Shown here: piece after piece, positions 56,863 to 63,736 of the stretch
Layout of the letters: each line of letters opens with the position of its first letter
Numbering within the stretch: the stretch's first letter is position 1
Source of the DNA: Elusimicrobiaceae bacterium
GTDB taxonomy: Bacteria; Elusimicrobiota; Elusimicrobia; Elusimicrobiales; Elusimicrobiaceae
Direction: 5' to 3'
NCBI GenBank assembly: GCA_017618215.1
Contig: JAFZUQ010000003.1
Location: 62,001-126,000 of the forward strand
DNA: 64,000 bases
Translations under genes and position numbers: made by a program
The notes under the pieces: generated by a model
What the model saw: the letters and a program-made list of their open reading frames with translations, nothing else
What the model was told of the DNA's origin: nothing
The model's database searches: none

Positions 56863-57498
56863 ATGAAAACACAAAAAATAGTATTAGCGTTAGCATTAGT
56901 AGCAGTAACACCAGCCGTATTAGCAGCACAAGATTATGTTGGCGGCCCAGGCAGCAAAATGTTATATATAGCAGATAATGCTCTTTCAAGAATTAGAGAA
57001 AGTACCAAAGAGCAAAATGACAAAAATGAGCCCCAAAAACAAGAACCGGTGCAGAAAAAACAAAATGATACAACAGTTAATTATGCTACCGTTCCGGCTT
57101 ATTATCCTTATGGTGGCCGTGAAGGCCATATGTTGGTACAAGAAGATGTTCATAAAAAGAAAAATAATAAACATCACAGAGATACAACTGACAGAAAAAA
57201 TAATACAAGAACACACGAAAGAACCGATACAGCAACACGTAGAACAAGCAGCACCTATACCTATACCGGAATTGAAGGCCATAGGGCAGCCCTAGGAAAT
57301 GCTGTAAGAGATGCAAAACGAGATTCAACCCCGGTTCCTACACATGTAAAGGATCTTGATACTGTCTCCAAAAGCCATCAAGTAACTCTTGATAAGAAAA
57401 CGGAAAACAAAAATACAAAGCAAACACATAAAACTTTCCGCTCTTATCTAAATGAAATCGGTAACGCAGTTATTCAAGAAATACCGTACATGAAATAA
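56863..57498 (+). CDS. Basic exported protein with YxYxGxEGH repeats
   Basis: 211 residues. Signal peptide MKTQKIVLALALVAVTPAVLAAQ. The mature protein is very polar and basic (Lys, Arg, Thr, Asn, Asp, His) with almost no hydrophobic core, so probably disordered. Two short related motifs stand out: YYPYGGREGHMLVQ (near residue 80) and YTYTGIEGHRAAL (near 134), both followed by charged stretches. The C-terminus (FRSYLNEIGNAVIQEIPYMK) is the only amphipathic part. No family recognised. Possible nucleic-acid or polyanion binder outside the inner membrane. AAGGAAA precedes the ATG; a terminator follows. Confidence 0.75.
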   Translation: MKTQKIVLALALVAVTPAVLAAQDYVGGPGSKMLYIADNALSRIRESTKEQNDKNEPQKQEPVQKKQNDTTVNYATVPAYYPYGGREGHMLVQEDVHKKKNNKHHRDTTDRKNNTRTHERTDTATRRTSSTYTYTGIEGHRAALGNAVRDAKRDSTPVPTHVKDLDTVSKSHQVTLDKKTENKNTKQTHKTFRSYLNEIGNAVIQEIPYMK

Positions 57499-57510
57499 AT
57501 TAACTTACAC

Positions 57511-57539
57511 AAAACCCCGTCGTTAAGACGGGGTTTTTT
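57511..57539 (+). terminator. Terminator of the basic exported protein gene
   Basis: An 11-bp perfect stem (57511-57521 with 57527-57537), loop GTTAA, followed by T residues. Confidence 0.88.
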
Positions 57540-57554
57540 ATTATCCAAATTCTA

Positions 57555-59075
57555 TTAATCATTAGGAATAGTATTTTCAAAAGCGAGGAAGATTTCCGCA
57601 ATATCTTCAGGTGTTTTAGCGGATATTAAACGTTCCCTCACAAATTGTGTGGAAGATACCGCCGCAAGTTCCGCAAGTATTTTAAGTTGAAAAGCAGGTT
57701 CTTTAAAAGGTGTTAAAATCAAAAATATAAGTTTAACATTATTGCTTGTACCATCGAATAAAATACCTTTTTTGGATATACCCACGCTAACCAAAGGTTT
57801 TGCTAAAGAAGCCACCCTTGCGTGAGGGAAAGCAACACCCTTTTCTAAAGCACAAGACATTATTTGCTCACGCTTTAAAATAAATTCTTTAGCTTGCTCT
57901 TTGGCGAATGTAGGTTGTTGTTTGTATAAAGCGTTTAACATTTCTTCAAAAGCGGCTTCTTTTGTGGTAGATTTTAAGTTAATAACACAAGCACCGGGTA
58001 CCAAAAAATTACTTATTGAAAGGGCATTTGGCTTTTCATACTCATCACGTATTTCGCCGACAAGTTCCTCCAAAACATCTTCCAAAGTAAGAAGGCCCAC
58101 AACTTCTTCTTTTGCATTTTTAATTAAAGCTTGGTGGTTTCTATTCGTCTGAAATTCCCTTAAAGCGGCTTCAACTGGTGTATGCTCATCAAGCATTAAA
58201 AGTTTATAAGTAAACCGTTCTTCAATGGGCTGCAAAGATTTTTCACTTAAAGATTCCAAGGACATTTCTTTAATTAAAACATACTCTTTTGCATCGTCAA
58301 TGGTTTCAGTATAAAGCGGATAGCGGGAGTATTTGCGTTTATTTATAATTTCCAGATTTTGCGGCCAGGTATTTGATTTTTTTAAAGCTGAAATTCTTAC
58401 ACGCGGCGTCATAATTTCTTTGACTTTCACTTGCTCAAAATCAAACAAATTTTCAAACATCATCAGGCGGCGTAAGGAAAATTTTCCCCCTTCCTGAGAT
58501 TTTGAAAACATCATCCTAAGTTCTTCTTGTGAGAGTGGTGTCTCCTGATGATGTGGATTTACACCTATTAAATCTAAAGTTTTATAAGCAACCCAAACCA
58601 AAATATTTTTGAAAACATTTGTGACTACATAAAAGTAATGCAAAGGAACGATTATATATTTCAAAACTTGCTCAGGATATTTTATGGCAAGGAGTTTCGG
58701 CACTTGCTCACCGTATACAACATGCAAAGAGGTAATTATCAAGAAAGCCAAAGTAAAGGAAATTAAATGTAAAGCAGCGGACGGCAACATCGGCACGATA
58801 TTCGGCATCAACCAAGATAAAACTTTACCGATACTCGGCTCACCAACCCAACCCAATGCCAAACTTGTCATGGTTATGGCAATTTGAATAGCGGAAAGAT
58901 ACTCATCAATATTTTCATGCGCTTTCAGCATTAATTTTTCTTTATATCCGCCGCTTTTAGCAAGTTCTTGCAAACGAGTGTGTCGCACTTTTACAAGTGC
59001 AAATTCCCCAAGCACGAAAAATGCATTAAGTAATATTATTAGGAGTGCCAATAATATAAAGAGAAGTGTAAACAT
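57555..59075 (-). CDS. CNNM-CBS membrane protein fused to a PTS EIIA domain
   Basis: 506 residues from the ATG at 59075. An N-terminal CNNM (DUF21) membrane domain with about four helices (1-190) includes NAFFVLGEFALVKVR and ITMTSLALGWVGEPSIGK. A CBS pair follows (about 215-335; VKEIMTPRVRI, VVGLLTLEDVLEELVGEIRDE), the core of CorC/HlyC-type proteins tied to Mg/Co efflux. Instead of the usual CorC_HlyC domain, the C-terminus (about 355-500) is a PTS EIIA type-2/PtsN-like domain with the phospho-acceptor His in KGVAFPHARVASL. The gene could put ion transport under PTS phosphorylation. The ATG is six bases after an extended -10, so it appears leaderless; a longer upstream frame would include that promoter. 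Confidence 0.88.
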   Translation of the reverse strand: MFTLLFILLALLIILLNAFFVLGEFALVKVRHTRLQELAKSGGYKEKLMLKAHENIDEYLSAIQIAITMTSLALGWVGEPSIGKVLSWLMPNIVPMLPSAALHLISFTLAFLIITSLHVVYGEQVPKLLAIKYPEQVLKYIIVPLHYFYVVTNVFKNILVWVAYKTLDLIGVNPHHQETPLSQEELRMMFSKSQEGGKFSLRRLMMFENLFDFEQVKVKEIMTPRVRISALKKSNTWPQNLEIINKRKYSRYPLYTETIDDAKEYVLIKEMSLESLSEKSLQPIEERFTYKLLMLDEHTPVEAALREFQTNRNHQALIKNAKEEVVGLLTLEDVLEELVGEIRDEYEKPNALSISNFLVPGACVINLKSTTKEAAFEEMLNALYKQQPTFAKEQAKEFILKREQIMSCALEKGVAFPHARVASLAKPLVSVGISKKGILFDGTSNNVKLIFLILTPFKEPAFQLKILAELAAVSSTQFVRERLISAKTPEDIAEIFLAFENTIPND

Positions 59076-59090
59076 AAAAACATTATAACA
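59073..59090 (-). promoter_or_regulatory. Leaderless extended -10 promoter of the CNNM-EIIA gene
   Basis: TGT (59090-59088), TATAAT (59087-59082), six bases (GTTTTT), ATG (59075-59073). Divergent from the promoter region of the 1434-residue protein. Confidence 0.72.
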
Positions 59091-59096
59091 AATAAA

Positions 59097-59146
59097 TAGG
59101 TCTTTTGGGTACCCCCCTTGAAATTTTGGCAATTGTATGTTAAACT
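59097..59146 (+). promoter_or_regulatory. Putative promoter of the giant surface protein with GGTC box
   Basis: TAGGTCTTTTGGGTAC (59097-59112) is identical over 16 bases to the outermost box at 23532-23517. TTGAAA at 59118-59123 is followed after 17 bases by a weak TAAACT (59141-59146). Here the GGTC starts 19 bases before the -35, not 13. Confidence 0.5.
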
Positions 59147-59431: not shown

Positions 59432-62400
59432 ATGCCAAACAAAGATAGTTTCACGTTTAGTGATAAACTGAGGAAGAGTAAATCTGTACCTCTCTCTAAA
59501 CGTTTGCCCTCAATAGTTGGGGGCCAGAACAAGCAAAAGCGTACATTAGTACAGCGCGCGCAACGCGATTTACCTTTTATATTGGTAGCGGTACTTGCTT
59601 TGCTTTTGTTACCGTTTTTAAGTAGAACCGGTAGCGATGATATCGCCAGCACAGGCGATTTTGCATGGAACAGTTTAGCTGATGAACGTTCTTTTGTAGA
59701 AGGTGGCGGTGCTGATATTATGCCCGCGGGTTCAATGCAGGACCCGTTGGACCTTATTTTGCGCCCGAGAAGCGACCTTGAAAGTTCAAGCGTAACAATG
59801 GGTACTGATGCATCAAAAAGCGCTTACGGTTCCGGTTCCAGAATCGGCTCCGATGACGAATATGGTGACGGTACAGGCGACGGTTATAGTAGCAGGAGCA
59901 GAAGTTATTCCTCCACAGGCAGTTCAACCACGAAAAGACCTGACTATAATACCCGCAAAAGTTACGACGAATCATATACAACCAAAACTACCAAAAAACC
60001 TGCCACAACAAAATACGGCCAAAAAACACGTGCAGGCGTCCGCAAAAGTTTTGAAAGAAAAGCCACTGACATAAACAGGGCTTTGCGTATTTCCCAAATG
60101 CCCGGCTCAAGAGGCGGATCACCGATAAGCCATAATTTACCTATAGGCCAAGGTCCCAATAAAGGTTCGGGTACTGCTTTTAGGGAAGGTGTCAGGCCTA
60201 TTGCTTTACAACCTATGGAAGCACGTGGCGGAGTAGGCCGCAGTATGACAGGTGAAAACTTGTATGCCGAAGCAGCCCGTTCAAGAAATGCAATGAATGC
60301 CGGCGGCCCGGCAAAACAAAACTTACTTGCCGCTCAAATGCGTGACGTAGACGGTAAACTTACCCCAGAAGGCCCCGGTTTCGGTGGCCCCGGCCCCGGC
60401 GCAAGTGTCAGGCCCGGTGCTGGCGGTAATGGCCCCGGCAATCATAACGGTTACCATGTAGATAAACCCTGGTGGTGGGATATGATGCAAACCCGCAGCC
60501 AAAAAATGTGGGACTTACTATATTATAAACCCCGTGAAATTTGGTACACCAACATGTACAATTATGCCTCACAACTTATGAACTGTTTATTCACCGGTAA
60601 TAAAGACGGTGATGTATCTACTATGTTTGGTAAAAAAGCCGGGGATGATGACATGATTTGTGAAGGGGCAGCTATGATGTCTCTCGGTGATTATGTGGAA
60701 AGATTTAGCAGTTCAAAAACCACAAAAACAAAAGAAGGAGGCTCCGAAACCCTATCTGACGGGGAAGGTGCTCGTGAACGATGGTATCAAGACTGTGAAA
60801 GAGCACACGGAACACCGACATTAAAAGAAGGAAAACGTAAATCTTTTCTCCAAACTCGTTTTGAATGCGTTGGTTTAGATTGGGGATGGTTTAAAGGTAT
60901 ATTCAAAGCAAAATCATACGGTGCAGATTGTTCTCATGTTAATAATGACCCATTGGAATTCACTTATTCCGTAACCAAAAACGGCAAGACAAAAGAACGC
61001 CTTGAAAAGAAGGCTATTGTCGCCTTGGTTGCAAAAGTTAACGACGACAATGCTAAAGGTGAAAAACGCCATATATTAGAAGGAACTGAAAACTATTATT
61101 ATAAGTTAAAAGGGCAAGAAATTGTTGTTTGGGCAGATATGGCTACATCCGTAAAAGCAACCAAAGAACAATTAGGTAATATTCGTGACGCGAATATTTG
61201 TACACTCACTAAAGTAATAGGTTTTGTTCCTAGAGCTGACAGAGGTGTCGTTGAAAAACAAATTGACAAGGCAAACTATCGCAGGATATTTGACAAACAA
61301 GATTACGACGAATTCGATGACAATTACACAAAACAAAATCCTGTTGAAGTTGATAAAAACGGTACTATAACAAAACGATATACTAGAAGTAAGGAAATAG
61401 AGACAAGACAAAATAAGGCAATTAAAGATAATGATAAGGATAGTTGGTATAGTGAATCCGATGTCAATAACTTGGCCCGTTTCCGCTCTCAAATACAAGC
61501 GGCACAACGTATTTGTCTGGGCAAAGCCACCAACTCAGATGTTCACCCGCTTACATTAAACGGTGTGTATGACCTTGCTGACTTTGTATCAGAAGACGGG
61601 CTTTTCAACTCCGGTGTTAAAAAGAATAGTTATAAAGAATGTACAATCTGGGATAAAAAACCTGAGTTTACCAAGTGGATTAATACTGAAGGATGTGATG
61701 GCGTTACCGAACAACGCATTCAAATCATGGAAAATGTCACATTTAAAGCCAAAATTACTGATTCTAAAGACAAACATGTTTATGCAGTATTGGTTGACCA
61801 GATTGACCAACAAAGCAAAGCCAGAGTTGCTTATGTGGTGGATTATGAATTGAGTGATAATAAAGCCTTAAGAAAATGTGAAGAAGGTAGTAAAGACTGT
61901 ACATATCAATTCAATGTTGATTCCGCAACTTTGGGTATAACTGCCACAGATGTAAAAGATCCTGATGGCGGCGGTACTACCTTCCGCGGTTCAGGTGTGA
62001 TTTTCTGGATTGTTACACAAGGTAATGCCACATTTAAAGCACATCAAGGAGATTTTGTTGCCGACAACACACACATGGTCAAAATTGATGACTTAATTGA
62101 ATCAAGCCAATCATTAATATCTGAAACTTGCAGGTACAGATGGTGTAATGATTTGGCAAGTTGCCCTGTGGACAAAACCCCTGCAGCAGATAATTACTGC
62201 GTGGAAGGTGATGAGGCATACGAAGCAGTACAAGTATCTTTAGGTGATAAAAAAGTAATGGTAAAGACGAACCAAAAACCTATAGAGATGTCTGAAGAAA
62301 AATTAAAGGAATTAGAAGAATGCGTTATGTTATGTCAGGGTTCGGACGGAGTACATATCTGCGATAAAAACGGTATTCCGGATGATAATCAACCGCCATG

Positions 62401-63736
62401 TCCTTTAAGTGAAATGGAGCCTCAAATAACCATCCCGCAATGCCATGGTTGTTGTGAATATACGACATCTGATGGAGAAACCAATAACTATAAGAGTGTT
62501 GAAATAAATGGCAAGCATTATATTGTTGATGCAACACCAAGTGATTGTGAAAATAAAAAGAACAATAAATGTACACCTGCAGCTTGGAGCAAAGAAGGCG
62601 ACGACCTTATAGTGTATGATATTGGTATGAATCCTTATGATCCAAAATGCCTCAAGTTTGTTCCTGGGGGATCAAAAGAACCCTTTGAGACTTGTACAGG
62701 TAACGGTTGCCCTCCTGGTCCGGTCAAGTTGACTGCTTTTGGTCCGAAAGATAGTGATTCTTTTACCTTGATACATGAGCAATCTTATACTATGGGGCCG
62801 AACCTTGATCCGAACCCCGGCACAGGTATGACTAAGGATCCGCAGTTCTTTGAATTGTTCCCGCAACTTACATTACAAAAAATTGAGGACATTCCGGAAA
62901 TTGATTTGAGTGATTGTAACGTATGCGATTCCGTTGATTATGACAATGTATGGGTAACACCTAGAAATAATATAGATAAGACTATTTCAGCTAAAATTAA
63001 AAATTGTTTAGATCAAATTGAAACGCTAAAAAACAGTCTCCCTGCGGATAAACAACATCTCATTGCTGATAAGTTTGATAAACTATACTTCTATGGTTAT
63101 GCCAGCAAACGCGGTTCACATGATCCGCATATGATACCAGGTGCAGACCGAATAGGATGTACAACAAGTAAACATGGTGATGGTTCCATAACAGGACGCA
63201 AACACACTATGTGGGACCCAGGCTACGAGGAATTAGGTGATTGTAACAAGGCCTTAAGTGAGGATAGAAACCTCTATATTATGGCACAAGCTGCTATAGA
63301 TTCCGGAAGACCAGAGAATATCACCATTGACAAGACATCTTCTGAGAAATATTTAGCCCATACCAACGATGATACTCCCTTCAAAGGCTTTAGCAACACC
63401 AAAGCTGCACGCGGAGTTAATATTATACGCTCTACACAAAGACTTGATAGAAATTATATCAAAGACTTAGTGTCAGATACGCCAAAAGGGTTTACCTTCA
63501 TATCAAGGCCATGTGGTTCAGACGGTGCAATCTATGATTATAATGTAGATGTAAATACTGGTTTAGCGGATAGATATGTCGTAGTAACCTTAATTGGCAA
63601 TGATGATGCTGAAGAACGCTGTCAAGACAACAACAGAATGACTTGTAGTATAGCCGAAAAAGAACTTGCCGATATTGTAAGAAAACTTAACAGTGCTCTT
63701 GGAACGAATAAAATAAAATTCAATCCTAAGAATTAG
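59432..63736 (+). CDS. Giant membrane-anchored surface protein candidate, 1434 residues
   Basis: No family recognised over most of its length. Basic cytoplasmic N-terminus (1-48), one membrane helix (about 49-66, PFILVAVLALLLLPFLS), then a Ser/Gly/Arg/Tyr-rich low-complexity stretch to about residue 340, a Trp/Tyr-rich segment (about 346-385, PWWWDMMQTRSQKMWDLLYY), and a long Cys-containing part with many spaced Cys pairs. Near the C-terminus, LYFYGYASKRG (about 1222) and ALSEDRNLYIMAQAAID (about 1277) loosely recall an OmpA-like domain; this is weak. It should be anchored in the inner membrane with about 1370 residues outside. Ribosome site AAGGAGG; long structured leader upstream; terminator downstream. 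Confidence 0.82.
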   Translation: MPNKDSFTFSDKLRKSKSVPLSKRLPSIVGGQNKQKRTLVQRAQRDLPFILVAVLALLLLPFLSRTGSDDIASTGDFAWNSLADERSFVEGGGADIMPAGSMQDPLDLILRPRSDLESSSVTMGTDASKSAYGSGSRIGSDDEYGDGTGDGYSSRSRSYSSTGSSTTKRPDYNTRKSYDESYTTKTTKKPATTKYGQKTRAGVRKSFERKATDINRALRISQMPGSRGGSPISHNLPIGQGPNKGSGTAFREGVRPIALQPMEARGGVGRSMTGENLYAEAARSRNAMNAGGPAKQNLLAAQMRDVDGKLTPEGPGFGGPGPGASVRPGAGGNGPGNHNGYHVDKPWWWDMMQTRSQKMWDLLYYKPREIWYTNMYNYASQLMNCLFTGNKDGDVSTMFGKKAGDDDMICEGAAMMSLGDYVERFSSSKTTKTKEGGSETLSDGEGARERWYQDCERAHGTPTLKEGKRKSFLQTRFECVGLDWGWFKGIFKAKSYGADCSHVNNDPLEFTYSVTKNGKTKERLEKKAIVALVAKVNDDNAKGEKRHILEGTENYYYKLKGQEIVVWADMATSVKATKEQLGNIRDANICTLTKVIGFVPRADRGVVEKQIDKANYRRIFDKQDYDEFDDNYTKQNPVEVDKNGTITKRYTRSKEIETRQNKAIKDNDKDSWYSESDVNNLARFRSQIQAAQRICLGKATNSDVHPLTLNGVYDLADFVSEDGLFNSGVKKNSYKECTIWDKKPEFTKWINTEGCDGVTEQRIQIMENVTFKAKITDSKDKHVYAVLVDQIDQQSKARVAYVVDYELSDNKALRKCEEGSKDCTYQFNVDSATLGITATDVKDPDGGGTTFRGSGVIFWIVTQGNATFKAHQGDFVADNTHMVKIDDLIESSQSLISETCRYRWCNDLASCPVDKTPAADNYCVEGDEAYEAVQVSLGDKKVMVKTNQKPIEMSEEKLKELEECVMLCQGSDGVHICDKNGIPDDNQPPCPLSEMEPQITIPQCHGCCEYTTSDGETNNYKSVEINGKHYIVDATPSDCENKKNNKCTPAAWSKEGDDLIVYDIGMNPYDPKCLKFVPGGSKEPFETCTGNGCPPGPVKLTAFGPKDSDSFTLIHEQSYTMGPNLDPNPGTGMTKDPQFFELFPQLTLQKIEDIPEIDLSDCNVCDSVDYDNVWVTPRNNIDKTISAKIKNCLDQIETLKNSLPADKQHLIADKFDKLYFYGYASKRGSHDPHMIPGADRIGCTTSKHGDGSITGRKHTMWDPGYEELGDCNKALSEDRNLYIMAQAAIDSGRPENITIDKTSSEKYLAHTNDDTPFKGFSNTKAARGVNIIRSTQRLDRNYIKDLVSDTPKGFTFISRPCGSDGAIYDYNVDVNTGLADRYVVVTLIGNDDAEERCQDNNRMTCSIAEKELADIVRKLNSALGTNKIKFNPKN

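Follow-up and report, generated by a model that had tools for sequence, protein, structure and literature searches.

LacS of streptococci and lactobacilli is a secondary transporter for lactose with a covalently attached EIIA domain that is phosphorylated by HPr (PMC10710835). This source, a 2023 review, presents LacS as the one case in which a bacterial transporter is controlled through phosphorylation of the transporter protein. Control of cation transport by an EIIA domain of the PtsN family is described in PMC11808508 and PMC13104625, where E. coli PtsN acts on YcgO, TrkA and KdpD as a separate protein binding in trans. On YcgO it probably acts via CorC: unphosphorylated PtsN binds the transporter, likely at its putative CorC domain, K+/H+ antiport is inhibited, and phosphorylation weakens the binding (PMC11808508). 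The function of CorC_HlyC is termed unknown in PMC12421838; in MtCorB the CorC domain touches CBS2, as judged by hydrogen exchange (PMC8242095).

We have analyzed a gene of an Elusimicrobiaceae bacterium, situated in a stretch of DNA of 64,000 nucleotides that we call the window, in which elements of these systems are joined in a single protein. Its transmembrane domain and CBS pair follow one another in the same order as in MtCorB and PaeA (PMC8242095, PMC12421838), but an EIIA domain stands in place of CorC_HlyC, and one of the Mg-coordinating Ser residues is Val. The covalent EIIA domain is shared with LacS; however, LacS carries sugar, belongs to the GPH family and has an EIIAGlc-family domain (PMC10710835), whereas the fusion has a CNNM cation transporter, a PtsN/fructose-family EIIA, and a CBS pair between them. 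Unlike E. coli PtsN, the EIIA of the fusion is built in, in the CorC slot (PMC11808508, PMC13104625). The EIIA-equipped transporter is already known as a kind, and it is the CNNM family and the PtsN-type domain that are new to it. No description of a CNNM-CBS-EIIA fusion was found in searches of an open-access library of papers. We propose, with a probability of about 0.62, that the protein is a CNNM/CorB-type transporter, probably an exporter, regulated via its covalent PtsN-like EIIA domain, which would serve as a PEP-fed phospho-switch in the CorC_HlyC slot. Should the domain function in the way that its sequence indicates, LacS (PMC10710835) would no longer be the only kind of transporter controlled by phosphorylation of the transporter itself, and central carbon metabolism would be directly connected to cation homeostasis.

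The features of the gene are collected in Table 1, and the coordinates of the initial annotation proved exact. The starts of its relatives lie within a few residues of the ATG given there, while the mechanical open reading frame extends upstream to a TTG at 59132.

Table 1. Coordinates in the window of the fusion gene, its domains, its active-site codons and an adjacent palindrome
Feature	Position	Strand	Remarks
CNNM-CBS-EIIA fusion gene	57555..59075	-	Start codon ATG at 59075; stop codon ends at 57555; product of 506 aa
CNNM/DUF21 transmembrane domain, aa 8-199	58479..59054	-	Pfam and Foldseek
CBS-pair (Bateman) domain, about aa 200-342	58050..58478	-	Fold and Pfam second CBS
PTS EIIA (PtsN-like) domain, aa 352-503, in the CorC_HlyC slot	57567..58022	-	Pfam and structure match
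H418 codon (CAC 57824-57822), predicted phospho-acceptor	57822..57824	-	E. coli PtsN H73 equivalent
R402 codon, conserved active-site Arg adjoining E403	57870..57872	-	
Q463 codon, replaces second active-site His	57687..57689	-	E. coli PtsN H120
Terminator-like palindrome	57511..57537	.	Listed on +; 11-pair stem with T tail

The initial annotation described a CNNM-CBS core fused to a PTS EIIA domain, and the Pfam matches for CNNM, CBS and PTS_EIIA_2 are all above their curated cut-offs. CNNM (residues 8-199) is matched with E = 1.9e-43 and 148.7 bits against a cut-off of 28.4, CBS (residues 291-339, the second of the pair and the only one that Pfam reports) with E = 7.9e-8, and PTS_EIIA_2 (residues 364-496) with E = 1.4e-24 and 87.1 bits against a cut-off of 27. 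At the C-terminus the fructose and PtsN EIIA models of NCBIfam match below cut-off.

Does the C-terminal domain fold as an EIIA, or does it adopt the CorC_HlyC fold, the outcome that would have spoken against the annotation? An AlphaFold model built with 42 sequences has a mean pLDDT of 89.7 and a pTM of 0.60; these values support the prediction of each single domain but do not fix how the domains are oriented to one another. With Foldseek, the front of the model finds MtCorB (7m1t) as its best match (E 4e-18), the middle finds CBS pairs of CorC (7cfh_A, TMt 0.88), and the end finds PtsN (1a6j, TMt 0.90; 2a0j, E 9e-8). VIA superposition of the C-terminal domain on PtsN 3urr_A gives Z = 21.8 and an rmsd of 1.8 Å over 149 aligned residues. 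The C-terminus is predicted to fold as EIIA and not as CorC_HlyC: PtsN structures stand there among the Foldseek and VIA matches listed (50 each), and Pfam gives no match of the protein to CorC_HlyC (PF03471) up to E = 10. The initial annotation is right that EIIA has taken the place of the domain usually found at this end, and sequence and predicted structure confirm a fusion of a CNNM/CorB-family transmembrane domain, a CBS pair and a PtsN/fructose-family EIIA.

The relatives refute both chance and an artefact of mis-assembly or of a frameshift that ran two genes together; nothing was found in favor of such an artefact, and we give it practically no weight. Of the 90 fusion loci retrieved, 88 encode the protein without a break in the reading frame, and the fusion occurs in other phyla as well; of the remaining two loci, L014 is without the first 96 residues and L013 (G044:C17), the broken copy of genome G044, is decayed, its frame interrupted by stops. 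Among 294 sampled Elusimicrobiota genomes, 94 carry the fusion along its length, all in the class of the window, with the match in G277 ending at query residue 475; partial matches were found in G247, G229 and G179. In the same survey of the phylum, one genus (g2) gave no match to the fusion, its genomes having CNNM-CBS matches alone or none. Outside the phylum, 32 of 294 Planctomycetota genomes have the fusion, with one more (G301) having it at a contig edge, as do 2 of 140 Myxococcota genomes. Among the matches listed in a scan of GTDB contigs, it is carried by the Planctomycetota MAGs L126, L128-L131, L146 and L175 (the last at a contig edge) and by the Myxococcota MAG L132. Phylum labels are those of the record titles or of the phylum drawn, and the binning of MAGs is taken as given.

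In a tree of CNNM-CBS sequences, a branch with an SH-aLRT of 92 (not starred) has 41 fusions of the three phyla on the same side, and in trees of the EIIA domain a topology uniting all 37 fusion domains is not rejected (p-AU 0.724), L105 being placed apart from the other fusions in the free tree. A single fusion event, followed by spread or loss, is allowed by these trees and not proven.

The active site of the EIIA domain was examined in the 88 full-length, uninterrupted Elusimicrobiota fusions, with residues mapped onto E. coli PtsN by alignment. The motif GVAFPHAR, read as an intact phospho-His motif in the initial annotation, is indeed present, and its His, H418, aligns with PtsN H73. This residue is His in 88/88 Elusimicrobiota fusions and in 23/23 rows of planctomycetal and myxococcal fusions, an invariance that points to strict constraint on the phospho-acceptor. 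E403 is likewise Glu in all 88, and R402 is Arg in 87. The behavior of position 463, the equivalent of PtsN H120, is different. It is Gln in 85 of the 88 fusions, with His in L086 and L087 and Tyr in L105; by this alignment most of the lineage of the window no longer has the second active-site His. The corresponding residue was compared in 54 rows of non-fused EIIA of the class, which comprise domains beside HPr kinase, APC permeases or hydrogenase-4-like genes, a KdpD-fused domain, a fructose-type protein and others. It is His in 46 of these, Tyr in 7 and Arg in 1, so that within the class Gln is observed in fusions only (85/88 versus 0/54). The planctomycetal and myxococcal rows, which include pairs from the same genome (e.g., L211 with L128 and L216 with L132), carry Gln there in 10 cases and His in the other 13. 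The second His is usual and not universal in PtsN/fructose EIIA, and was not used for excluding membership of the family.

A phospho-switch requires a donor, and absence of any EI or HPr had been named as grounds for rejecting the proposal. The genome of the window (1.34 Mb, 92.8% complete) encodes EI, HPr and HPr kinase, which rules out a lack of phospho-donor. HPr kinase, a sorbose/mannose-family EIIA/EIIB/EIIC/EIID set and an HPr of 91 aa share a single run of genes; at another site a glucose-type EIICB has an EIIA(Glc)-HPr-EI protein as its neighbor. Of 80 chosen genomes of the class, 78 have EI, 78 have HPr and 78 have HPr kinase, and EI was found in all 8 fusion-bearing genomes of other phyla that were among the matches listed in the scan of GTDB contigs. 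Since EI and HPr are nearly universal, their co-occurrence with the fusion is uninformative (HPr in 36/37 genomes with the fusion versus 41/43 without). HPr kinase alone was not found in the fusion-bearing G082. Among the 80 genomes of the class, one with the fusion, G197 (97% complete), is without EI and HPr, and HPr kinase was not found there either; the genes are close together in relatives, and a single assembly gap could account for their absence.

The arrangement of these genes varies within the class. In G010 (L046) a stand-alone ptsI has ptsH on one side and a lepA-like gene on the other; it is missing from the corresponding spot in the genome of the window (L041 9523-11622, G000:C9) and in G013 and G243 (L044, L053). 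Each of the latter three genomes has a single EI match, within a long multidomain frame, which in the genome of the window is that of EIIA(Glc)-HPr-EI.

These results bear on two other accounts of the domain. It might still work as a phosphoryl donor, serving the EIIB of some sugar permease and owing its link with the transporter to an accident of fusion, and the EIIA acceptor residues are indeed kept. We consider this very unlikely: the second active-site His is replaced in nearly all of the Elusimicrobiota fusions, and the permeases found beside the PTS genes in the genome of the window belong to the glucose or the sorbose/mannose family and have EIIA domains of those same families. Alternatively, the domain could be a structural or dimerising tail that is never phosphorylated, as the one altered active-site residue and the missing EI and HPr of the fusion-bearing G197 might indicate. 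Structure alone, however, would not demand an H418 that is invariant across three phyla, nor an Arg402 and a PHAR loop that are largely kept, and we regard a purely structural role as improbable. Phosphorylation is likely to regulate the fusion.

What is transported, and what else might the protein sense? We have mapped onto the fusion, by alignment, the residues of MtCorB that coordinate Mg or form its pi-helix, namely S21, S25, S71 or N, G110-E111 and P114 (PMC8242095). The equivalents are N17, V21, about S71, G122-E123 and P126. N17, E24, E123 and P126 are each found in 88/88 fusions and G122 in 86/88; the replacement of the Mg-site S25 by V21 is equally general, Val being present in 86/88. 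This substitution would fit a transporter of polyamines rather than Mg2+, one resembling PaeA in its export function and under the same PTS control, a possibility that is compatible with our preferred explanation. PaeA is also the best match of the front part in NCBIfam, with GldE and CorC-type families next, but its 147.3 bits compare with a cut-off of 500, and none of the subfamily matches comes near its cut-off. The Glu and Pro of the pi-helix, and the Gly conserved in the Mg2+ transporters, are moreover retained, and we hold polyamine transport to be possible but doubtful.

The CBS pair keeps the residues predicted to contact ATP: among the 88 fusions, the equivalents are conserved at S250 in 84, R251 in 88, T330 in 80 (Ser in the other 8), D333 in 87 and T223 in 65. 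Might the signal then run in the opposite sense? A CNNM-CBS part bound to Mg-ATP or to ions could gate the access of P~HPr to H418, such that the fusion would tune the PTS phosphate pool or its partners. The retention of the ATP contacts is in keeping with this, as is the occurrence of EIIA domains of the class on or beside other signalling parts (KdpD in L057, and operons of hydrogenase-4 type). Yet one membrane transporter would be a weak lever on a soluble phosphorelay, and in the known cases of LacS and YcgO control runs from the PTS to the transporter. We find such reverse signalling unlikely.

We favor a phospho-switch that acts on the transporter, which would give the coupling of cation transport to PTS phosphorylation state that the initial annotation suggested. 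Phosphate would pass from PEP through EI to HPr, and P~HPr would phosphorylate H418. In the EIIAGlc H75Q case, loss of the second His blocks donation, not acceptance. Leaning on this mutant, and because the second active-site His is Gln463, we infer that P~H418 is not passed to an EIIB and that the domain is a terminal acceptor reporting the PEP/PTS state. This acceptor-only reading does not cover the whole family, since 13 of the 23 planctomycetal and myxococcal rows retain the His. The unphosphorylated EIIA would pack on the CBS pair and restrain the CNNM dimer, and phosphorylation would release it. This direction of control is suggested by analogy with unphosphorylated PtsN on YcgO, and the opposite direction is nearly as likely. 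As the CBS pair retains its ATP-contact residues, the fusion would read adenylate charge and PEP simultaneously. Against this explanation we count the missing donors of G197, the fact that Gln463 is not general, the broken copy in G044, the genus without the fusion, Val21 and the match to PaeA.

Besides the fusion, no CNNM was found in the genome of the window, and no PF03471 either. Across 80 genomes of the class, CorC_HlyC occurs in 0 of 46 with an intact fusion and in 7 of 34 others (Fisher p = 0.0015, calculated on 7/33 with G044, the bearer of the broken copy, left out). The mutual exclusion is suggestive only, because six of the seven CorC_HlyC genomes belong to one genus and the PF03471 matches are weak (two below cut-off). 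G010 has a second CNNM in addition to the fusion. With EIIA filling the slot of CorC_HlyC, and PtsN reported to bind a transporter via CorC in trans, the fusion offers a handle on the role of that domain. By analogy, it may be a covalent form of the E. coli circuit in which PtsN silences a transporter via CorC. More speculatively, CorC_HlyC might be a docking site for PTS EIIA proteins and the fusion its covalent, receptor-free form, belonging to an old system of three phyla in which PEP sets cation export and possibly one of the few outputs of the permease-less PTS of planctomycetes; we offer this tentatively, as a doubtful extension.

Other EIIA_2 domains of the same class are attached to, or lie beside, transport functions. 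They differ from the fusion in the protein families concerned, in keeping the second His (L057, L043) and in their place in the EIIA tree. In L043 (6091-8558, G000:C6) the gene directly beside that of a stand-alone PtsN-like EIIA encodes an amino acid permease of the APC type, likely another EIIA-transporter pair. The same arrangement is seen in L052, L058, L278, L280, L283, L286, L289, L291, L293 and L295-L297, giving 13 APC-linked rows. In L057 (1158-3608, G168) a KdpD sensor region and a C-terminal PTS_EIIA_2 form one open reading frame of 816 aa, a cis version of the PtsN-KdpD contact of E. coli; a histidine kinase domain is absent from its Pfam listing. In L049 (3290-4093), L051, L060 and 10 other rows the EIIA adjoins, by eye, genes for membrane subunits resembling those of hydrogenase-4 or complex I, and some of these domains have an excisionase-like helix-turn-helix in front, also judged by eye. 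It is possible that these proteins are PTS-controlled regulators of energy conservation. A distinct group (L050, L056, L277, L279, L285 and L288) has the motif ACPH(I/V)R, Tyr at the position of the second His, and longer frames.

The neighborhood of the fusion gene revealed no functional link and no operon across the 88 loci. One neighbor family is common to up to 34 of them, mostly in convergent orientation, and shared neighbors include frames named by eye as SecG-like and phosphoglycerate-kinase-like. The palindrome of Table 1 sits between the convergent gene at 56863-57498 (+) and the fusion; it is weak statistically, as the region has two terminator-like sites where shuffling leads one to expect 1.3. 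A perfect TATAAT at 59082-59087, absent from the list of the promoter scan and read by eye, ends six bases ahead of the ATG, hinting at a leaderless transcript. The divergent neighbor at 59432-63736 encodes a protein of 1434 aa with low-complexity and Cys-containing stretches.
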